A stretch of 62,797 nucleotides of DNA from Candidatus Eiseniibacteriota bacterium. GTDB lineage: Bacteria > Orphanbacterota > Orphanbacteria > Orphanbacterales > Orphanbacteraceae. The stretch spans positions 1 to 62,797 of the forward strand of contig JAJRWB010000022.1 of NCBI GenBank assembly GCA_024276995.1. Reading direction: 5' to 3'. Shown here piece by piece: positions 4,537 through 14,540 of the stretch (position 1 is the first letter of the stretch; every line of letters begins with the position of its first letter). The notes below the pieces were generated by a model. It did no database searches. It was not told the DNA's origin and saw only the letters and a program-made list of their open reading frames with translations. Position numbers and translations under genes: made by a program.

Positions 4537-4566
4537 TTGACATGTCAACGGCGGGCAGTATATACT
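4537..4566 (+). promoter_or_regulatory. Promoter of the RiPP operon with palindromic -35 operator
   Basis: TTGACA (4537-4542) with TATACT (4561-4566, 18-base spacer) or TATATA (4559, 16-base spacer). The -35 hexamer is half of the perfect 12-base palindrome TTGACATGTCAA (4537-4548), so a dimeric repressor could occlude it. A second, weaker promoter-like pair (TTGGAA at 4429, TATAAT at 4450) lies further upstream in the same 215-base gap, in which no other gene is visible. Confidence 0.55.
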
Positions 4567-4616
4567 TAGTTTGAATAGTAGCCGGAGGGGAAGCTACCTC
4601 CAGGAAGGGCATCCGA

Positions 4617-4748
4617 ATGAGGCACGAAAAGGAAAACTACGTAAAGCCCGAATTGAAGAGGCACGAGAATCTGAAGACGATCACCCTGGTCTCCGATCCG
4701 AAGCTCCACCTCGAGAGGCATGAGCTGTACGTCGGAGACGAGCTGTAG
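4617..4748 (+). CDS. Putative RiPP precursor peptide with lasso-type leader
   Basis: A 43-residue peptide (ATG 4617, AGGAAGGG eight bases upstream). Residues 8-23 (YVKPELKRHENLKTIT) fit the lasso leader pattern YxxPxLxxxGx(4-6)T, which is recognised by the RRE (B1) protein; the usual Gly is Glu17 here. If the conserved leader Thr at -2 is Thr23, the core starts at Val25 (VSDPKLHLERHELYVGDEL, 19 residues). It then has an acidic residue at core position 9 (Glu33), the position used for a lasso ring bond. The peptide also shows an internal echo (KRHENL / ERHELY). It lies directly before PqqD-, HprK-, B2- and nucleotidyltransferase genes. Product structure is unknown; no cyclase is encoded nearby. 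Confidence 0.62.
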   Translation: MRHEKENYVKPELKRHENLKTITLVSDPKLHLERHELYVGDEL

Positions 4749-4775
4749 ATCGATTTTTCGTTTTCGAACTCTGCG

Positions 4776-4825
4776 GGATGGGAAGGACTCCTCCGAAAAG
4801 GAGGAAACACTTTCCATCCCTTTTT
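4776..4825 (+). terminator. Intra-operon hairpin with T-run after the precursor gene
   Basis: A ten-base stem (GGATGGGAAG at 4776-4785 with CTTTCCATCC at 4810-4819, one G-T) encloses a second small hairpin and is followed by CTTTTT. It would let the short precursor transcript accumulate over the biosynthetic genes, a common arrangement in RiPP operons. Confidence 0.6.
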
Positions 4826-4886
4826 CTTGTTGTAGTATTGTTTTTTCGTCGCAGCCGTCCCTGAACGGGTTGGTGGGGAGAGATCG

Positions 4887-5171
4887 ATGAATTGTACCCC
4901 CGAGTCCGTGTTCGTCCGTTCTCCCGATGTTCCGTCGCGCGCCATCGCGGGGAAGGGGATCCTCGTCGACCTCGAAAGCGGCTACTACTTCAGCCTCAAC
5001 CGCACCGGCCAGGTGATCTGGGAATTGTTCGATGGCGATCGAACGCTCGGCGATATCGCGCGGGAACTGGCGACCCGGTTCGACGTGAGCGAAGAGATCG
5101 TCCTTGCCGACTGCATCGAGCTGGCGGAGAGACTTCTTACCGATCGCCTGGTGATCCCGGCCGGAACGTGA
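4887..5171 (+). CDS. PqqD-like RiPP recognition element (lasso B1 type)
   Basis: A 94-residue PqqD-fold protein: a three-stranded winged-helix core with ILVDLESGYYFSLNRTGQVI and WELFDGDRTLGDIA, the signature of stand-alone RREs. These bind the precursor leader and hand it to the modifying enzymes. It lies 138 bases after the precursor and its stop overlaps the kinase start (TGATG), so translation is coupled. It resembles both the B1 proteins of lasso-peptide clusters and the PqqD proteins described for HPr-kinase-related (HPr-rel-A) systems. The RRE assignment is strong; the specific product class is inference. Confidence 0.85.
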   Translation: MNCTPESVFVRSPDVPSRAIAGKGILVDLESGYYFSLNRTGQVIWELFDGDRTLGDIARELATRFDVSEEIVLADCIELAERLLTDRLVIPAGT

Positions 5172-6136
5172 TGGGAACGGAGAACCTCCACCTGGAACTG
5201 CTGGGCGAGCGTTTCCATCTGCGCGCGACGAACCGGGAGACGATCGACGCGATTCTCGCGGCGGCGGTTCTCCTGGCCGACGGAGCGAACGACTCGACCG
5301 GGAAGAAACCACACCTCACCTTCACCTTCCGCGATGCGCCGGATGGGTATGAGCCGCGAGTCCCCGGCGGAGCGCCGCGTGCCGTATCGGGGCAGCGTGA
5401 TTTCGTCATTTTCGCGGACGGGGAGGAACTTCTCGTCGTGGTGGAGAACCGTTCGATGGCTCGCTGCCGCTTCGACGCAGGCGAGGTGACGGTCGATATC
5501 CACCCGGTGCACCGCACGAACGGCTGGATCATCGGTCACAGGCTCTTCTTTCTTCCCCTGTTGGAATGGATGCGGTTCCGCGGCTGGTATCCTATCCATG
5601 GATCGTGCTTCCAGGTGGACGGGCGTACCGTTCTGGTAAGCGGGGCGAGCGGGGCCGGAAAATCGACGGCGGCGCTCGCCGCTCTCGCTTCGGGATGTCC
5701 CATCGTGTCGGACGATACCCTCTTCGCCTGCCGTTCGGGGCGCTCGGTTCTTCTCGACCCGTTTCCCGAACCGATCAAGATCGGCAAGGGTTCGATGCGG
5801 TTCTTTCCCGAGTGGGAGGGGAAACTGCATGAGCGGTTCAACAAATTCATCATGCCTGAAGAGAATCTTCCGGGAGGTCGCCGCCTTTTCGGTGTCTCTC
5901 CCGACATCCTTCTTTTTCCCCGGATCGTGGAGAGCGACGCGACGACTTTCTCATCCCTCTCCGGCGAGGAAGCGCTTGTGCGGCTCCTCCCGCAGTCGGT
6001 CCTGCCCGCCCCTCACGGCACGATGCAGCGTCATATCGACCTGCTCGGCGAACTGGTGGAGCAGGTCGAATCGTATCGCCTCCTTTTCGGGCGGGACGTG
6101 CGCGCCCTTCCCGATCGGATCAGGACACTCCTGTGA
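5171..6136 (+). CDS. HprK-like P-loop kinase associated with RiPP modification
   Basis: A 321-residue protein. An N-terminal domain (1-135) precedes an HPr-kinase-like C-terminal half with His143 (PIHGS), the P-loop GASGAGKST (158-166) and the paired aspartates VSDD (181-182). In lasso clusters such as paeninodin, kinases of this family phosphorylate the peptide; related genes define the HPr-rel-A system. Here the substrate is probably the precursor or its product. The start ATG overlaps the stop of the RRE gene. There is no HPr-like protein nearby, which argues against a role in sugar phosphotransfer control. Confidence 0.8.
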   Translation: MGTENLHLELLGERFHLRATNRETIDAILAAAVLLADGANDSTGKKPHLTFTFRDAPDGYEPRVPGGAPRAVSGQRDFVIFADGEELLVVVENRSMARCRFDAGEVTVDIHPVHRTNGWIIGHRLFFLPLLEWMRFRGWYPIHGSCFQVDGRTVLVSGASGAGKSTAALAALASGCPIVSDDTLFACRSGRSVLLDPFPEPIKIGKGSMRFFPEWEGKLHERFNKFIMPEENLPGGRRLFGVSPDILLFPRIVESDATTFSSLSGEEALVRLLPQSVLPAPHGTMQRHIDLLGELVEQVESYRLLFGRDVRALPDRIRTLL

Positions 6137-6155
6137 GGAAAACCCGGGCGGGCCG

Positions 6156-6641
6156 ATGAACGAAAAGGAATTGCAGGAACTCATCATGAAATACCCGCTT
6201 CCTCCGTCGGTCCTCGCCCGGCCGACGACGGCTTTCTTCATCGTCCGATCGATCGTCACGGCGTTTCTTCTCTTCGCGGCGCTCCCGTTCCGTCCCGTCC
6301 GGGAACTCTTCCCCCGCGCCGGGGGGAAGGAGCGGAAGCTCTCCATCGAAAGGGCCGCAGTTTCCTGCAGTCTCACCGAGGCGCTTCTCCGTTTCCCGCT
6401 CTTTCCTTTCCGGAGAACGTGCCTCAGGCGGTCGCTTCTCCTGTCGCACCTTCTGAGGAAGTGCGGGATTCCCGTGCGGGTCGCATTCGGCGTCGATCCT
6501 GCGGAAGGGGGATGGGAGGGGCATTCGTGGCTCGTGCTGAACGACCGCCCCTTCCTCGAAGAGGGCGGGGAGAGTCGCTCCTTCGTGCCGGTATTCTATC
6601 TACCCGAACAGGAGGGGCGGCTGGACGGGGGAGGCCGATAA
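6156..6641 (+). CDS. Lasso B2-type transglutaminase-like leader peptidase
   Basis: A 161-residue member of the McjB C-terminal (B2) family. An N-terminal membrane-prone helix (about 24-45) is followed by the papain-like core: Cys89 in the TCLRRSLLLSHLLRK helix, VAFGVDP, His123 in GHSWLVLNDRPFLE, and an acidic residue after it (Asp130 or Glu135) as third member of the triad. Such enzymes cut the leader from lasso precursors, using ATP and the RRE. It starts 19 bases after the kinase stop, and its TAA overlaps the next ATG (TAATG). Confidence 0.8.
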   Translation: MNEKELQELIMKYPLPPSVLARPTTAFFIVRSIVTAFLLFAALPFRPVRELFPRAGGKERKLSIERAAVSCSLTEALLRFPLFPFRRTCLRRSLLLSHLLRKCGIPVRVAFGVDPAEGGWEGHSWLVLNDRPFLEEGGESRSFVPVFYLPEQEGRLDGGGR

Positions 6642-7825
6642 TGGAGATCCGCCTCGCCCGGGAGACGGCCCTTCTCCGGGAGATGCTCCGTCCCGAACAC
6701 AACGGGAAGAGGATCGCCGAGCTGATCGGGCCGGCCGACTCCTTCGAATGGGATCTTTTCGAAGAGATTCTTTTTCGCTCCCGTCTCGTTCCTCTCGTTT
6801 CGGCCACCGTGGCCGGCTTGGGGGAAGAGGCCGTGTTCCTTCCCGAAAAGCTGCGCGTTCGGCTTCGGCTCGAGGAGGAGAGGGCGGCCGTCCGATCGCT
6901 CCTGAAGTCCCATGAACTCGGACAGATCGCGGACCATCTCCGAGGGAGCGGCGTGCGTGCGATGGTGCTGAAAGGGATTCCCTTCGCGCAGCGCTTTTTC
7001 GGCGATCCAGCGCTACGGGATATCCGGGATCTCGACCTTCTGATCGCGCCGGAACAACTCCGGCCGGCCGAACGGGTATTGAGAAACCTAGGCTATTCTC
7101 TCTTCGAAGTGGTCCATTCCCGCGATTTCTACAGGCGCCACCACTTTCACGTCGTCTACGTTCGCAAGTCGAAGAGTATTGATGTGGTGGAACTCCACTG
7201 GAATCTTCTCCGCCATCCGTACGGTCTCCACCTGAACACCACCGACCTCTTCCAGAATAGCAGGCTCTATGAACTGGACGGCCGCTCGATCGAGATTCTT
7301 CCCGTTCTCGACGAACTCGTGTACACCGTGGCGAGTCTGCGGAGCGCCCATTTTCGATCCCTGAGAAGACTGGTCGACCTCGATCGCGCAATGAGGAGCG
7401 TCGCTCCCTGCGTGAGGGCATTGGACGTGGTTCGCCGCGCCGCATCGTGGGGGATGGAAGAAGAGGCGATCGCCGCCTTTCATTTCCTGCTCCGTTTCTG
7501 GGGCGACGAAGCGTATCGCCTCGATACGCCCCGGCGGATACGCAGGTTCGCCTCCCGCTACAGGGGGAGCGATTTCTTCGGAATCTCATCGGGCCGGGAG
7601 ATGCGACTGAGGATCTGGTGCGCCGCCTTCTTCGGCAAGTGGGGCGGTCTCGAGTTCGGCAGGCAGGTGGTTTTTCCTGATGAAGAGGCGGGGGCGGAAC
7701 TGTACTATCACCGGGAACGGAGCCGCACGAGATCGATGAAAGTCCGCCAGACGCTGACCGGCGTCGTGTCGCTGCTCGATCTTTCCGCCAATCTGGCAGC
7801 CGCTCCTTTTCGCCGGATGGGCTGA
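6641..7825 (+). CDS. Nucleotidyltransferase-fold protein (NTP_transf_5 type) of the RiPP operon
   Basis: A 394-residue protein. It contains an MVLKGIPFAQRFFGDP segment (108-123) and the metal-binding pair in RDIRDLDLLI (Asp130, Asp132), hallmarks of the uncharacterised pol-beta-like nucleotidyltransferases found beside lasso and HprK-like genes. It may transfer a nucleotide or phosphate group to the peptide or to a sugar; the reaction is not established. The start ATG overlaps the B2 stop, so it is translationally coupled. Its position between B2 and the exporter makes a tailoring role likely. Confidence 0.75.
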   Translation: MEIRLARETALLREMLRPEHNGKRIAELIGPADSFEWDLFEEILFRSRLVPLVSATVAGLGEEAVFLPEKLRVRLRLEEERAAVRSLLKSHELGQIADHLRGSGVRAMVLKGIPFAQRFFGDPALRDIRDLDLLIAPEQLRPAERVLRNLGYSLFEVVHSRDFYRRHHFHVVYVRKSKSIDVVELHWNLLRHPYGLHLNTTDLFQNSRLYELDGRSIEILPVLDELVYTVASLRSAHFRSLRRLVDLDRAMRSVAPCVRALDVVRRAASWGMEEEAIAAFHFLLRFWGDEAYRLDTPRRIRRFASRYRGSDFFGISSGREMRLRIWCAAFFGKWGGLEFGRQVVFPDEEAGAELYYHRERSRTRSMKVRQTLTGVVSLLDLSANLAAAPFRRMG

Positions 7826-7852
7826 CCGCCGACCGAGGAGAGAATCGCCCCC

Positions 7853-8851
7853 TTGCACGCCGCCGAATTCATTCATGTATCCAAGACATATCCGATTCGC
7901 GGGGGACTCGATCGCCTGTTCCGGAACCCGTTCCGCCGGGAAAGCCTGGTGGCGCTGTCGGATGTTTCCTTCAGCGTGGACAGTGGAGAGGTGGTCGCCC
8001 TTCTCGGCCCGAACGGTTCGGGAAAATCGACCGCCCTGAAGATACTCGCGTCGCTCATCCTCCCAACGGCGGGGATCGCCCGAATCGAGGGAAGGGACAC
8101 GTCGAAGGAGAGTCTTGCCACGCGCGGCCGGATCGGGTACTGCATGGCTGAAGAGCGCAGCTTCTATTTCCGTCTTTCGGGGAGACAGAATCTCCGTTTC
8201 TTCGGGAAGCTCCGCGGGCTTTCCGACGCCCGCATCGAAAGGGATATCGACGACCTGGCCGCCCTTCTCGCCCTGGATGAGGTGGATGAACGGTTCATGA
8301 CCTATTCCACCGGTACGCGCCAGAAACTCTCGGTGGCGCGATCCCTCATGGGAGACCAGCCTGTTCTTCTCCTCGACGAGCCGACCCGGGGGCTCGATCC
8401 GTACACTTCATCCCTTTTCCTGGAAAGACTTCGTCTTATCGCTTCGACGGGCAAAACGGTGATTCTCGCCAGCCACGATCTCGGCGCCGTCGACCGGATC
8501 GCCGACAGGCTGATCTTCCTGCACAAGGGGGAAATGCTGGCGGAAGGATCATCCGAGGAAGTACTCAACCGTTTCGACGTGCCGAGCGAGATCGAGCTCG
8601 AAGTGGCCGGTGCGAAGGAAGGGTGGACCGCCCCCCTGAAAGAGGTGCCCGGAATCGATCTGGTCGAGGAGAAGTCCGCTCCGGGCGAGGGGGCGAGCCG
8701 CTGCCGGATCGTCCTGGGCGGTGGGGGGATCGAGCCGGACGAACTCCTCCGGCTCCTCCGGGGCCGCTTCCGGACGGTGAGCCGGCTGAGCCTCCGGAAA
8801 GGTTCACTCGAGGAACTCTACAAACGCTTTTCCCGCGGGGAGGAGACATGA
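7853..8851 (+). CDS. ABC exporter ATPase
   Basis: A 332-residue ABC ATPase of the ABC-2/DrrA class: Walker A GPNGSGKST, a signature of the STGTRQK type and Walker B VLLLDEPTRGLD, then a C-terminal extension of about 100 residues as in drug-exporter ATPases. It begins at TTG 7853; GAGGAG lies 13 bases upstream and no better start is available. Its stop overlaps the permease ATG (ATGATG). It probably exports the modified peptide or a lipid-linked product of the operon. Confidence 0.88.
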   Translation: MHAAEFIHVSKTYPIRGGLDRLFRNPFRRESLVALSDVSFSVDSGEVVALLGPNGSGKSTALKILASLILPTAGIARIEGRDTSKESLATRGRIGYCMAEERSFYFRLSGRQNLRFFGKLRGLSDARIERDIDDLAALLALDEVDERFMTYSTGTRQKLSVARSLMGDQPVLLLDEPTRGLDPYTSSLFLERLRLIASTGKTVILASHDLGAVDRIADRLIFLHKGEMLAEGSSEEVLNRFDVPSEIELEVAGAKEGWTAPLKEVPGIDLVEEKSAPGEGASRCRIVLGGGGIEPDELLRLLRGRFRTVSRLSLRKGSLEELYKRFSRGEET

Positions 8852-9669
8852 TGCTCGACCCGGTGCGCGGGAGACCGTGGGCCTTTCTGCGGAAAGACCT
8901 CCAGGTGGCGACGAGCTACCGGCTCGCTTTCGTGCTTCAGCTCTTCGGGATCGCCCTCACGCTGGCGCTCTTCTACTTCCTCGCCCGGCTGATCGACACC
9001 ACCATGAATCCTTACCTCGACCGGTACGGCGGAGATTATTTCTCCTTCGTTCTTATCGGTGTCGCGGTGAGCAACTACCTCTCCACCGGGCTGAACGCGT
9101 TCGCCTCCCGGATCCGGGACGAACAGGTGCTCGGCACTCTCGAGGCGATCCTATCCACGCCGACCCGTTTCTCCACCTATCTTCTCTCGTCCGCGATCTG
9201 GAACTTCCTGTGGGCATCGTTCACCATCGTGATCTACCTCGTGTTCGGGGTGCTCTTCTTCGATCTGAAAATGGTGAATCCCAATCTTCCGGTGGCGCTC
9301 CTCTTCTTGAGCCTCACGGTGATCGCCTTTTCGAGCCTCGGAATTCTGGCCGCCAGCTTCATTCTGGTGATGAAGCGGGGCAATCCGGTGAACTGGGTCT
9401 TCACTTCCCTCTCTCGGCTGCTCGGCGGCGTCTACTTTCCCGTTTCCGTGCTCCCCGTCTGGTTGCAGAAGGCGGCGTTTCTCCTCCCTCTCACCTATTC
9501 CCTCGAAGGGATGCGAATGGCTCTTCTCACCGGTGTGGCGCTGGCGGATCTGAAGAAGGAACTGCTCGCGTTGGTCGTGTTCACCGCGGCGGCCCTGTTC
9601 TTCGGCATTCTCTCGGCCCGTTTCGCCATCCGGAGGGCGAGGAGAGACGGGACGCTCGGACAGTATTGA
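8848..9669 (+). CDS. ABC-2 type exporter permease
   Basis: A 273-residue membrane protein with six predicted helices and the ABC-2 pattern (helices near VLQLFGIALTLALFYFLAR and SFVLIGVAVSNYLSTGL, and a C-terminal pair ending in basic residues). It partners the ATPase it overlaps by four bases. The pair closes the RiPP operon; 133 bases separate it from the next start. Confidence 0.86.
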   Translation: MMLDPVRGRPWAFLRKDLQVATSYRLAFVLQLFGIALTLALFYFLARLIDTTMNPYLDRYGGDYFSFVLIGVAVSNYLSTGLNAFASRIRDEQVLGTLEAILSTPTRFSTYLLSSAIWNFLWASFTIVIYLVFGVLFFDLKMVNPNLPVALLFLSLTVIAFSSLGILAASFILVMKRGNPVNWVFTSLSRLLGGVYFPVSVLPVWLQKAAFLLPLTYSLEGMRMALLTGVALADLKKELLALVVFTAAALFFGILSARFAIRRARRDGTLGQY

Positions 9670-9802
9670 GAAGGAGCATCCGCCGGCCGGAACCTCCGTC
9701 CGGTAGGAACGGGCGGCCCGCGCCGGATTGTGCTACCATGGGCGCGATTTTTCTCAGGCGGCGCGGACCGGATGGGATAGTGAACAGGGAAGGAGCTTCC
9801 TC

Positions 9803-11413
9803 TTGGAAGAAAAACACGATTCGTTGACGGAAGAAGCGTCGGAGCGCGCCGGGGCGAAGCCGATCCTTTTCCCGGTTTTCGGTGTGCTCCTCGGAGCGGG
9901 GGGCGCACTTCTGCAGCTGAAAGCGCTCCGATTCGGCGCGATCGCCCCGGGCCAGCTCCCAATGTTCTGGGCGTTCTTCCTCGGCGTCGGCGCGCTTCTC
10001 GCTTTCGTCGTCGGAATCGCCGCGCGGCGGCTCTTCCGCTCGGCCGGCGGCGCGTACGGCATCGCCATCGGAGTCACCGCGATTCTTCTCGCGATCTTCG
10101 TTCCTCTCAACAGCCGTTCTCTTACAAACGTCTATCTCCTCATCACCGACACCACCCGGTCGGATCATCTCTCGCTCTACGGCTACGACAGGGAGACGAC
10201 CCCCTTTCTCGACGAGCTTGCCTCCGAGGGTGTCACCTTCCGGCAATCGATATCGACCGGCACTCATACGATCGTATCCACGCCGTGCATCGTCGCATCG
10301 ATCTATCCGAGCGAACACGGGATCGTCGGCTATTCGAATGTCCTTTCCAACCGGTTCACCCTCCTATCGGAATACCTCCACGAGTGGGGATACCGAACGT
10401 ACGGTTACGCCACGAATCCGCACCTCGGTCCCCGTCTCGGCTACGCCCAAGGGTTCGACAAGTATGAGCACGACCCGGGTTGGGCGCAGACGCCCGCGGG
10501 GGACGTGAACCGGAGGTTCCTGCGGTGGATCGACGACGGAAACGACGTGGACGGACCGCTCTTCAGTTTTCTTTTCTACATCGATCCCCACAACCCCTAT
10601 GAACCGCCCCCGGCGTTCCAAACCCTTTTCGATCCGGGATGGAAGGGCGCGGTGATCTCCGACTGGCGTCACGAGGACGGGAAGCCGGAGCCGGGGAAGC
10701 TGAGGAATCTCATCGCCCAGTATGACGGCGCCATCGCGTACTGGGACGCCGAGCTTCGGAAACTCGTCGGGGAACTGAAGGCGAGGGGGTTGTGGGAAAA
10801 CTCTCTTCTCGTCTACACTTCCGACCATGGCGAGGGCTTCTGGGAACACGGTTTCTGGGGACATAATGTAACTATGTATGAAGAATTGTGCCGTGTTCCT
10901 CTCTTCTTCTCCTTTCCCGTTCCGGTGCACTTTCCGCCCCTCCGGCGGACATCGGGTTCGGTGGACGAAATCGTGTCGAGCATCGATGTGGTACCCACGG
11001 TTCTCGAGTTTCTACGTATCGCCCCGGACGAAACGGCGAGGGGAAGGAGCGCCCTCCCGCTCGTGTTCGGCGGCGAGACGGGACCGGAGAGGATGGCATA
11101 CTGCGAGGAGATCTTGAAGCGCTACGGCCCGTACGATATTCGGGCCATCCGCACGAAAACGCACAAGTACATCCGGATTTTCAACTACGAAGGGGATACC
11201 GGCCGGGGCGATCTCTTTTTCGACCTGGAAAGCGATCCCGGCGAACTGAAGAATCTCGCTTCCGTCGAATCGGAGGAACTCGATATGCACAGGCGGCTCC
11301 TCGATCTCAAGATGGCGGAGATCGCCGGCAAGGGGAGCGTGAAAACCGACACCGTCGAGGTGGAGCCCGCCGTGCTCGAGCGGCTGAAAGCGCTCGGCTA
11401 CCTCGGAGACTGA
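9803..11413 (+). CDS. Membrane-anchored sulfatase/phosphotransferase-fold enzyme
   Basis: A 536-residue alkaline-phosphatase-superfamily protein with three N-terminal membrane helices and a periplasmic catalytic domain. Metal-site motifs are LLITDTTRSDHLSLYGY, YTSDHGEGFWEHG and a C-terminal ERLKALGYL tail. The usual sulfatase motif CxPSR is replaced by VSTPCIVASIYPSEHG, so the nucleophile is likely Ser/Thr and no formylglycine is expected; a lipid-to-sugar phosphotransferase or hydrolase is as likely as a true sulfatase. The start is taken at TTG 9803, preceded by GGAAGGAG. It follows the RiPP exporter in the same direction and may belong to the same transcript. A paralogue with an in-frame stop lies at 38917-40863. 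Confidence 0.72.
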   Translation: MEEKHDSLTEEASERAGAKPILFPVFGVLLGAGGALLQLKALRFGAIAPGQLPMFWAFFLGVGALLAFVVGIAARRLFRSAGGAYGIAIGVTAILLAIFVPLNSRSLTNVYLLITDTTRSDHLSLYGYDRETTPFLDELASEGVTFRQSISTGTHTIVSTPCIVASIYPSEHGIVGYSNVLSNRFTLLSEYLHEWGYRTYGYATNPHLGPRLGYAQGFDKYEHDPGWAQTPAGDVNRRFLRWIDDGNDVDGPLFSFLFYIDPHNPYEPPPAFQTLFDPGWKGAVISDWRHEDGKPEPGKLRNLIAQYDGAIAYWDAELRKLVGELKARGLWENSLLVYTSDHGEGFWEHGFWGHNVTMYEELCRVPLFFSFPVPVHFPPLRRTSGSVDEIVSSIDVVPTVLEFLRIAPDETARGRSALPLVFGGETGPERMAYCEEILKRYGPYDIRAIRTKTHKYIRIFNYEGDTGRGDLFFDLESDPGELKNLASVESEELDMHRRLLDLKMAEIAGKGSVKTDTVEVEPAVLERLKALGYLGD

Positions 11414-11555: not shown

Positions 11556-14540
11556 ATGCGCAACCGTGTACGCACACTCCCATCCGTCCCTGCATCCTAC
11601 GGGCGGATCCTGGCGACCGTGATCACACTCCTTCCGCTTTTCCTGGGCGTATCGGTCCGCGCCGCTTTCGCTTTCGTCGATCCGGTCGGCGGAACGGCCG
11701 CTCCGACGGTGATCGCCGTTCCCGAGGGCGACCCGACGCTGTTCGGTCGTTTCGTGCGGAGCGAGGAGCGGATCGATTCCGGGCTCGCTTCGTTCCGCTC
11801 GGCGGTGGGGGGAAGTTGGGCGATCCAGAGGAATCCGGTGACCGGAACACCCCACCAAGTGGTAGGAAGCGGCATCGACTACGCGTCGACGCCCCTTTCC
11901 GGAAACGACGACGCCCTGCGCGTGGCGAGACGGTTCCTGTCGGAGCACGCCGCTTTCTTCCAGGTCGACATCGATCGGCTCGGAGAGCCGTGGATCGAGC
12001 GGAGCGGCGGCAAGTGGTCGGTCGTGTTCCGTGAAACATACGGTGGAATCCCCGTTCGCGGCGGAAGGGCGCATGTCGTTTTCACGGAAGGCGGTCGCAT
12101 CTTCGCGGCGGGGTCCGACTTTCATCCCTCGATCGTCGCCGATGTGGCGAACCTGATGCCGTCGTCCGACGCGGTGGCGATCGCGAAGGGGGAGATGGGG
12201 TTCGTCGATGGATCCGATTTCATGCGGGAGGAGCCGGAGCTGTTCATCTACCCGGTTCGCTCGGGGAGCGGTTTCCTCTATCGGCCCACGTGGAAAGTGA
12301 TTCTCCATATGCAGAATCCTTTCGGAGGCTGGGAGAACTGGGTCGACGCCAACACCGGCGAGATCTACGCGCGGCGCGATATGTACGAGTACGTCGATGT
12401 CACGGGTGTCATCCACGGCGCGGTGAGCGATCCCGAATACTGCGTTCCATCCGCCGACCTTCCCCTGAAAGGGATGAACGTCAACTTGAACGGCGGGACC
12501 GCGGTGCAGTCCCTCGATGACGGCTCCTTCGTCATCCCGTACGGCGGCGCGGACAGCGTCGTCGTTACCACCCGTTTTCGGGGGCCCGATTTCCGCCAAT
12601 ACAACAACGCGGGGCCCGTCGCCCGGGATACGGCGAGAATCATCGCGGGGGAGACGGCCGATCTTTGGTTCGACGACACCAACTCCGACGCCACCGAGAG
12701 GGCTGCATGGTATCAGCATTATGTGGTGCGAGACTTCATCAAGAGCATCGATCCCGGTCTGTCCGCCGCCGATTACCAGATGCCCGTGACACTGAACCGA
12801 ACGGACGGGTACTGCCCGGGAAACGCCTGGTTCGACGGCACGGGTACGAATTTCTGTCTCGGTTCCGGGGGGAACGCGAACACCGGCGAACTGGGCGGCG
12901 TGATCTATCACGAATACGGTCACGGCGTGAACGGCTGGACATACAACGGAGGCGGATTCAGCGGCGCCCTCAGCGAAGGGAACGCCGACGTACTCACCTT
13001 GATGATTCTTCACCGGCCGACCATGGGGATCGGCTTCTCCCAGGGCGAGTGCAACCGCGGAATCCGGAGCGCGAGCCAGGGCTTCCGTTTCCCCGACGAT
13101 CTCGTCGGCGAGGGACACACCGACGGCCAGGCGATCTCCGGTTTCTTCTGGGAAGTGCGCAACCGGATGATCACGAGTTACGGAGAGGCGTACACCGATT
13201 CCGTCCTCCCGCGACTGTGGCATTTCTCCAGGAAACTCGGTAAGCCGTACACCCTCCAGGACCAGGTGACGTGGGCGTTCATCTATGACGATGTGGACGG
13301 AAACCTCGACACCGGCACCCCGAACTTCACCGAACTCGCCGGCGCTGCCGCGGAGATCGGTTTCACCGTGCCGACAATCAGCCAGGGAGTCCAGATCGTC
13401 CATGCCGGACTTCCTTCCACCACCGATACGCTTTCCACGAGGGTGGTAACCGGCGTGGTTACCGGCCTGTCGGGCGGTATCGATCCTTCCTCCGTTCTGC
13501 TCCACTACCGCGTCAACGGTTCGGCGTTTACCGATGTTCCGATGACGCCCACGGCGAACCCCGGCGAGTATGCGGCGTCGATCCCTGCGATGCCGGAAGA
13601 TTCGCGTGTGGAGTATTACCTCGAAGCGGCCGACTCCGCTTCCCACATCGACTTCAGCCCGACGAACGCGCCGGCCCGTCTCCACTGGTACGACGTCGCT
13701 TTCATCTATGACCCGTGCGAGTCCGCAGCCGGATGGACGCTCGGCGATTCGCTCGACGACGCCACGAAGGGCACGTGGATCAACGCCGATCCTGTGGGGA
13801 ACGTGACGCGCCCGGAGGATGATGTGACTCCCGATGGCGTGAACTGTTTCGTCACGGGGAACAGCGGCAATGTGAACGGCGGTACGACGACGCTCTATTC
13901 GCCCTTCTACCAGCTCGGCGGGACGAACCAGGCGACGGCGCGCTACAGGCGATGGTACTCGAACAACTACGGAGCGAACGGTGTGCTCGCCACGCTCGAC
14001 GACTGGTGGATCGTCGACGCCTCGGCCGACGGCGGGATGACGTGGAGCATGGTGGAAAACGAGCCCGCCGGGAGCGAGTCGTGGGTGGAGGTGGAAGTCG
14101 ATCTGGGCGCTCTATTCGGCGTGGTCGACAGTGTGCAGTTCCGTTTCACCGCCCGGGACACCGGTGAGGCGACGAGGGTTCATGCGGCCGTCGACGAGGT
14201 TCGGTTCGTGAAGCCTCTCGCCACCGATGTGGCGTCCACCGGAGGCGGAAGGGAAGCACCGGGCGTGTTCCGGCTCGAGGCAAACCGTCCGAATCCGTTC
14301 AATCCGCTCACGACGATCGCCTTCGATCTTCCCGTGCGCTCACAGGTCCGACTCGAGGTTTTCGATGTCGCCGGGCGGCGCGTGAAGAGTCTCCTCTCCG
14401 GATGGCGCGACGCGGGCCGGCACGAGGTGAGCTGGAATGGAACGGACGACCGGGGCGCCGAGGCTGGATCGGGCGTCTATTTCTACAGGTTGGAGAGCGG
14501 TTCGAAAAGATCGGTGAAGAAAATGACTCTCGTTCGATGA
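11556..14540 (+). CDS. Secreted M36/M4-like zinc metallopeptidase with FlgD-like sorting tail
   Basis: A 994-residue exported protein. The signal peptide (about 1-40) is followed by an FTP-like propeptide, then the peptidase with zinc motif HEYGH (452-456) and third ligand Glu474 in SEGNAD, typical of fungalysin/M36. A beta-sandwich region follows, and the last 85 residues form the FlgD-Ig-like C-terminal domain (NRPNPFNPLTTIAFDLP, VFDVAGRRV, GVYFYRL) used as a secretion/anchoring tail in FCB-group bacteria. It degrades protein outside the cell, probably for nutrition. The gene is monocistronic, bounded by its own promoter and a strong terminator. Confidence 0.88.
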   Translation: MRNRVRTLPSVPASYGRILATVITLLPLFLGVSVRAAFAFVDPVGGTAAPTVIAVPEGDPTLFGRFVRSEERIDSGLASFRSAVGGSWAIQRNPVTGTPHQVVGSGIDYASTPLSGNDDALRVARRFLSEHAAFFQVDIDRLGEPWIERSGGKWSVVFRETYGGIPVRGGRAHVVFTEGGRIFAAGSDFHPSIVADVANLMPSSDAVAIAKGEMGFVDGSDFMREEPELFIYPVRSGSGFLYRPTWKVILHMQNPFGGWENWVDANTGEIYARRDMYEYVDVTGVIHGAVSDPEYCVPSADLPLKGMNVNLNGGTAVQSLDDGSFVIPYGGADSVVVTTRFRGPDFRQYNNAGPVARDTARIIAGETADLWFDDTNSDATERAAWYQHYVVRDFIKSIDPGLSAADYQMPVTLNRTDGYCPGNAWFDGTGTNFCLGSGGNANTGELGGVIYHEYGHGVNGWTYNGGGFSGALSEGNADVLTLMILHRPTMGIGFSQGECNRGIRSASQGFRFPDDLVGEGHTDGQAISGFFWEVRNRMITSYGEAYTDSVLPRLWHFSRKLGKPYTLQDQVTWAFIYDDVDGNLDTGTPNFTELAGAAAEIGFTVPTISQGVQIVHAGLPSTTDTLSTRVVTGVVTGLSGGIDPSSVLLHYRVNGSAFTDVPMTPTANPGEYAASIPAMPEDSRVEYYLEAADSASHIDFSPTNAPARLHWYDVAFIYDPCESAAGWTLGDSLDDATKGTWINADPVGNVTRPEDDVTPDGVNCFVTGNSGNVNGGTTTLYSPFYQLGGTNQATARYRRWYSNNYGANGVLATLDDWWIVDASADGGMTWSMVENEPAGSESWVEVEVDLGALFGVVDSVQFRFTARDTGEATRVHAAVDEVRFVKPLATDVASTGGGREAPGVFRLEANRPNPFNPLTTIAFDLPVRSQVRLEVFDVAGRRVKSLLSGWRDAGRHEVSWNGTDDRGAEAGSGVYFYRLESGSKRSVKKMTLVR

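Follow-up and report, generated by a model that had tools for sequence, protein, structure and literature searches.

We describe an operon at positions 4537–9669 of the window, a stretch of 62,797 nucleotides (contig JAJRWB010000022.1) from the genome of a Candidatus Eiseniibacteriota bacterium (GCA_024276995.1). The operon probably matures and exports short, linear ribosomally synthesised and post-translationally modified peptides (RiPPs) that are phosphorylated on a serine, then capped, and released by a leader peptidase of the B2 type. It consists of a promoter, a precursor gene, a hairpin and six machinery genes, encoding a PqqD-type RiPP recognition element (RRE; B1), an HprK-like kinase (K), B2, an NTP_transf_5 protein (N), an ABC ATPase and an ABC-2 permease. 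The six-gene machinery is present, with the same genes in the same order, in all seven sampled genomes of a small candidate phylum (G000, the window's own, to G006), which belong to a single family. The original prediction listed the precursor and the machinery as a lasso-like operon without a lasso cyclase; each element was found at its place, and the overlaps TGATG (5169–5173), TAATG (6639–6643) and ATGATG (8848–8853) are seen in the sequence. The features are as follows.

4537–4566, + strand: sigma-70-like promoter TTGACA-N18-TATACT, 5' of the precursor, 11/12 consensus matches
4617–4748, + strand: precursor peptide A, 43 aa, MRHEKENYVKPELKRHENLKTITLVSDPKLHLERHELYVGDEL; homologues in 6/7 phylum genomes; invariant M, Y8, P11, I22, T23 and S26
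4617–4688, + strand: predicted leader of precursor A, with Y(-17), P(-14), L(-12), T(-2) and L(-1)
4689–4745, + strand: predicted core VSDPKLHLERHELYVGDEL; the Ser2 codon (4692–4694) is the proposed phosphorylation site, and this Ser is invariant in 11/11 precursors
4775–4828, + strand: terminator- or attenuator-like hairpin (11 + 6 bp) with TTTTTCTT after it, separating the precursor from the enzyme genes; -34.3 kcal/mol, z -2.35
4887–5171, + strand: B1, discrete RRE of the PqqD family (PF05402, 60.7 bits)
5171–6136, + strand: K, HprK-like kinase with a His-P-loop-Asp-Asp motif (H143, GASGAGKS, D181 D182)
6156–6641, + strand: B2, transglutaminase-like cysteine leader peptidase (NF033537, 53 bits, above cut-off); C89 and H123 invariant
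6641–7825, + strand: N, NTP_transf_5 enzyme of nucleotidyltransferase fold (PF14907, 145 bits), with VLKG...RDxRDLDLL and VVELHWN
7853–8851, + strand: ABC exporter ATPase, DrrA-like, 51–60% identity across family genomes
8848–9669, + strand: ABC-2 permease, DrrB-like, 72–82% identity across family genomes

Conservation of the operon and its precursors

The operon is syntenic in all six related genomes, and a profile of the 43-aa open reading frame (ORF) recovers its homologues in 6/7 genomes (E = 1e-5 to 1e-23); the observation is therefore far beyond chance. The named relatives are metagenome-assembled genomes labelled Candidatus Eisenbacteria, Gemmatimonadetes or just "bacterium". The kinases of the related genomes share 41–52% identity with the window's copy, and in each of the seven genomes the operon follows a Nudix gene. 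Presence in every sampled genome of the phylum suggests an everyday role, not that of an occasional weapon. Neither this conservation nor the trans-encoded precursors described next were visible to the original prediction.

Four precursors are encoded in cis, two in tandem in G004, one in G002 and the window's own; none was found upstream of PqqD in G001, G003, G005 and G006. A profile of these four peptides was used to search the seven genomes for further precursors and brought the total to 11, the other seven being encoded in trans: two in G001 and one each in G000 (contig C20, L055:9554-9673), G002, G003, G004 and G006, the relatives' equivalents being L056–L060. The neighbours of the trans peptides are the same in 6/6 genomes, with a secreted protein of 980–1389 aa containing Ig/FlgD-like domains upstream and a Sortilin/BNR-type protein of ~730 aa downstream. 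The peptides are thus partnered with conserved large surface proteins in six genomes.

The trans peptides follow the pattern YEKPxxxxHGxLKEIT[LM][TI]S[FV]...., and two of them score above the cut-off of the NF033521 "lasso leader" model. Invariant in all 11 precursors are a Tyr, a Pro, an Ile, a Thr and, three positions past this Thr, a Ser. Placing the Tyr at -17 puts the Pro at -14 and the Thr at -2, and precursor A shows the register of lasso leaders, where Thr(-2) serves as the recognition element for B2 cleavage (PMC10885120, PMC10368454). From this lasso-like Tyr/Pro/Thr register, cleavage is therefore predicted after Leu/Met(-1). The predicted cores would comprise 9–23 residues, with Ser always at position 2.

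The precursors also carry their own expression signals. A TTGAC[AG]-N16-18-TANNNT element lies within 160 nt upstream of 9/11 precursors, compared with 1.3% of random positions, and a strict test for a hairpin followed by a T-run is passed by 8/11, compared with 1.7%; the remainder are accounted for by one tandem copy and two irregular hairpins. It is therefore very likely that the short ORF is a genuine gene with its own transcript. Both HprK and NTP_transf_5 are broad families, for the most part uncharacterised by experiment, so that the kinase and nucleotidyltransferase might be thought to act on sugars or another protein, the small ORF being incidental. We regard this as very improbable given the strongly conserved homologues of the 43-aa ORF, its own promoter and hairpin and its RRE-binding motif. 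To our knowledge, neither B1 nor B2 has a role in sugar metabolism.

No lasso cyclase is encoded with the operon

No Asn_synthase match occurs within the window, in agreement with the original prediction, and no lasso cyclase is found at the operon locus in any of the seven genomes. Genome-wide statements are based on profile searches. The whole-genome search for Asn-synthetase-like ligases recovered, from the window's own genome (96% complete), one full-length Asn_synthase protein and two weak partial matches. The full-length protein begins MCGITGIYHF..., bears Cys2, is of the glutamine-hydrolysing AsnB type and lies between glycosyltransferase genes. Against a lasso-C profile built from cyclases of other phyla, the Asn_synthase proteins of the seven genomes score 10–295 bits and true lasso C proteins 490–800, a gap somewhat flattered by the latter being the training set. 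B2 and PqqD are each single-copy in the window's own genome, and both lie within the operon.

The cores point the same way. Asp or Glu at core positions 7–9, the ring acceptor of lasso peptides, is present in 6/11 precursors and absent from 5/11. One core of G001, TSFQPPPPK, has nine residues and no acidic residue; a lasso ring is therefore impossible for that peptide. An alternative is a lasso peptide, its macrolactam ligase being encoded at another place or absent from the assembly. This would account for B1, B2, kinase and nucleotidyltransferase, all of them parts of lasso clusters, and for the six cores with an acceptor. Nevertheless, it is very improbable in view of the cores without one, the empty loci, the low lasso-C scores and a genome offering only AsnB. 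The part of the original prediction that proposed a modified linear peptide is thus the best supported, whereas its other suggestion, a ligase encoded elsewhere, is not supported.

The phosphorylated lasso peptides paeninodin, pseudomycoidin and Bsf likewise have B1, B2, kinase and nucleotidyltransferase genes (PMC9266682, PMC10368454). Aided by the RRE, BsfK adds phosphate to a core Ser that lies close to the N-terminus of the core (PMC10368454). By sequence, the window operon keeps the lasso trait of an RRE-dependent B2 leader peptidase together with a leader bearing YxxP and T(-2). It differs in having no cyclase, in that the ring acceptor is not conserved, and in that the kinases of the phylum fall outside the sampled lasso-kinase clade.

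The enzymes retain their catalytic and recognition residues

The PqqD-type profile matches the lasso RREs TbiB1, PbaB1 and TfuB1 and LppB, the RRE of linear polyphosphorylated peptides (LPPs). Residues N38 and D75 of B1 align without gaps to N33 and D70 of LppB, which fix the Pro kink and the Tyr of the leader, and are invariant in 7/7 genomes. The kinase retains the positions described for kinases of lasso peptides (His, P-loop and Asp-Asp), and these too are invariant in the seven genomes, as are the Cys and His of B2 and the acidic motif of the NTP_transf_5 protein.

Sequence searches of B2 and NTP_transf_5 against solved structures gave no match, and a single-protein B2 scan of the genome contigs found no relatives. 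A Foldseek search with the B2 model returned weak cysteine-protease-like matches, LapG being the best relevant one (E 0.05). The AlphaFold model of the NTP_transf_5 protein (pLDDT 83) resembles the nucleotidyltransferase folds of MenAT1, ANT(2'') and LnuA, with a weaker match to the ribitol-phosphate transferase FKRP. As reported in PMC9266682, PsmN puts a hexose on phospho-Ser in vivo, its authors leaving alternatives open; a transfer by NTP_transf_5 onto the Ser phosphate would fit this precedent. A SipW-like signal peptidase (TIGR02228) was found in 0/7 phylum genomes, which therefore leaves B2 as the candidate dedicated leader peptidase.

Directly downstream of the operon, in the same orientation, lies a gene for a protein of the sulfatase/phosphoethanolamine-transferase superfamily (9728–11413), and similar genes follow the operon in G001, G004 and G005. 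This neighbour might act on the exported phosphopeptide or else be unrelated. Further downstream (11556–14540), a large secreted protein is encoded that carries the metalloprotease motif HEYGH (HExxH) and has a FlgD-like tail at its C-terminus.

The operon probably works like an LPP cluster but is most likely not one by descent

LPPs of Bacillota were described by Popov et al. (Nat Commun, May 2026; PMC13381572). Their clusters encode an RRE, an HprK-like kinase and a SipW-like peptidase with an NTP transferase and no cyclase, and the product is a linear peptide polyphosphorylated on core Ser3 by the kinase LppK (PMC13381572). The gene combination noted in the original prediction has a precedent: LPP clusters already unite RRE, HprK and NTP transferase in the absence of a cyclase, with a peptidase of another kind. 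The comparison with HPr-rel-A systems made in the original prediction extends to a PqqD-family protein and an HprK-related kinase, but membership is not borne out (TIGR04352, 31.7 bits against a cut-off of 200).

For comparison, LPP loci were recovered from the bacterial family of G332, the genome of the paeninodin-like locus L093. The likeness covers a discrete RRE, an HprK-like kinase with an early core Ser as its target (a proposed one in the window operon), an NTP transferase, an exporter and the lack of a macrolactam cyclase. It extends to the precursors: LPP precursors such as YHAPKVLKHQPIRFETSQS align with the window family at Y1, P4, H9, I/L12, T16 and S19, so that a YxxP leader with equally spaced His, Leu/Ile, Thr and Ser (18 residues from Tyr to Ser) is common to both. 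The LPP motif YxxP...H..[LI]...T..S is in register here, whereas the FE preceding its Thr is not kept. The leader peptidase is SipW-like in LPPs and B2 in the window operon, and the exporter is MsbA-like in the former and a DrrAB-like ABC-2 pair in the latter. LPPs are described as restricted to Bacillota and are patchily distributed in Bacilli (PMC13381572), whereas the window operon comes from another phylum and is kept in all seven of its sampled genomes.

The descent of the operon was approached through its kinase and B2. B2 was surveyed in 386 genomes, and loci outside the phylum were examined for architecture: 13 have a lasso cyclase, 11 have a radical SAM enzyme and no cyclase, and some are remnants. 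An HprK-like kinase occurs in 10 of the 11 radical-SAM loci within the stretch read. In the kinase tree, the kinases of the phylum are united in a single clade (100/100), which groups with the radical-SAM type (97/97; 98/98 in an earlier tree), while LPP kinases (100/100) and lasso kinases (93/93) stand separately. LPP nucleotidyltransferases also form their own 100/100 clade, and the B2 tree leans toward the radical-SAM grouping with weak support. The window's kinase thus groups with those of radical-SAM/kinase/B2 loci. Because of this clade placement, the operon most likely did not arise from a lasso cluster by loss of the cyclase, an idea rejected on the kinase trees, and most likely is not an LPP cluster by descent either.

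A true LPP cluster acquired from Bacillota, with B2 replacing the SipW-like peptidase, would explain the equal enzyme roles, the missing cyclase and the shared Y1-P4-H9-[LI]12-T16-S19 spacing. Such a transfer is very improbable, as LPP kinases and nucleotidyltransferases form clades of their own, the exporter differs, and location and presence point to vertical descent within the phylum. The operon would work like an LPP cluster and is most likely not one by descent; it is a new form, distinguished by B2, exporter, conservation and kinase clade.

The cyclase-free loci with B2 and a radical SAM enzyme, mostly accompanied by an HprK-like kinase and PqqD and sampled across other phyla, are L031, L033, L039, L101–L103 and L106–L110. 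Loci of this type, for example L103, L107 and L102, contain the closest kinase relatives of the window operon, a similar leader with T(-2) and B2 without a cyclase; their radical SAM enzyme is missing from the window operon. Precursors at such loci, for example YTKPTLTKHKPLRDITAGDISGARG, carry a T(-2) leader like the window family, and the L102 leader, YTKPTLTKHKPLRDIT, resembles those of the family. In this locus type only B2 scores above its NCBIfam cut-off, and no description was found in the open-access literature. Five other cyclase-free loci (L092, L094, L112, L114 and L117) have no adjacent precursor with the motif and look like remnants or partial clusters. G104 has several B2 loci, among them L092 (N-B1-B2-K), a close relative of the lasso locus L089; no cyclase was found within the 12 kb read, which may reflect a recent loss. 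L111 spans 15.5 kb and holds three or four lasso-cyclase genes along with several kinases and two RREs, in what appear to be stacked lasso clusters.

A proposed pathway

The gene set, its conservation, the intact catalytic motifs, the common leader and the invariant Ser are read from the genomes; so is the finding that the home genome lacks a cyclase and that none of the seven encodes a SipW-like peptidase. What we infer is every chemical step, the order in which the steps occur, where the leader is cut and what the biological role is. B1 would bind the YxxP motif of the leader and present the precursor to the HprK-like kinase, which would phosphorylate, perhaps polyphosphorylate, the invariant core Ser2. 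The NTP_transf_5 enzyme may then cap the Ser phosphate with a nucleotidyl or a sugar/polyol-phosphate group. B2 would cut after the residue following T(-2) and free the core of 9–23 residues, which the ABC-2 transporter would export. One machinery would serve both the cis precursors and the trans precursors, the latter supplied from separate short transcripts beside conserved secreted-protein genes. We suspect a conserved surface or signalling function, not an antibiotic one.

Several points weigh against this pathway. Deletion of lppN changed nothing in a heterologous host (PMC13381572), because of which capping by NTP_transf_5 appears to be the weakest step of the scheme. No precursor was found in G005 (82% complete). 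Apart from Ser2, the cores encoded in cis and in trans show little similarity, and the proposal that the same enzymes serve both is drawn from leader similarity alone. The product is predicted from genes alone.

The remaining points concern a radical-SAM-modified RiPP whose enzyme acts in trans, for which the kinase trees and the likeness of the L102 leader speak. No radical SAM gene occurs in the operon or at the trans-precursor loci. A profile of the radical-SAM-locus enzymes gave nothing below 1e-20 in 5/7 genomes and, in the other two, weak and partial matches inside frames of 848–927 aa; this search was made by profile, and the other radical-SAM proteins of these genomes were not gone through singly. 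We consider such a modification unlikely, if the least so of the alternatives, and retain the linear, Ser-phosphorylated peptide as the probable product.

More broadly, and tentatively, the operon could represent a separate lineage of linear phospho-RiPPs that arose from the radical-SAM/kinase/B2 branch and converged with LPPs, a fixed maturation and export operon modifying peptides from scattered loci and belonging to the core physiology of the whole phylum, at the cell surface or in signalling; we think this possible, though somewhat short of probable. The operon suggests that the proteins which read and cut a lasso leader are employed where no lasso ring is formed. It would extend predicted linear RiPPs with a phosphorylated Ser beyond Bacillota, as a second form of separate origin. 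Concrete precursors, down to a core of nine residues, are at hand for probing the NTP_transf_5 reaction, and vertical conservation in all seven genomes, with precursors beside conserved surface proteins, would make the function of these phosphopeptides directly approachable.

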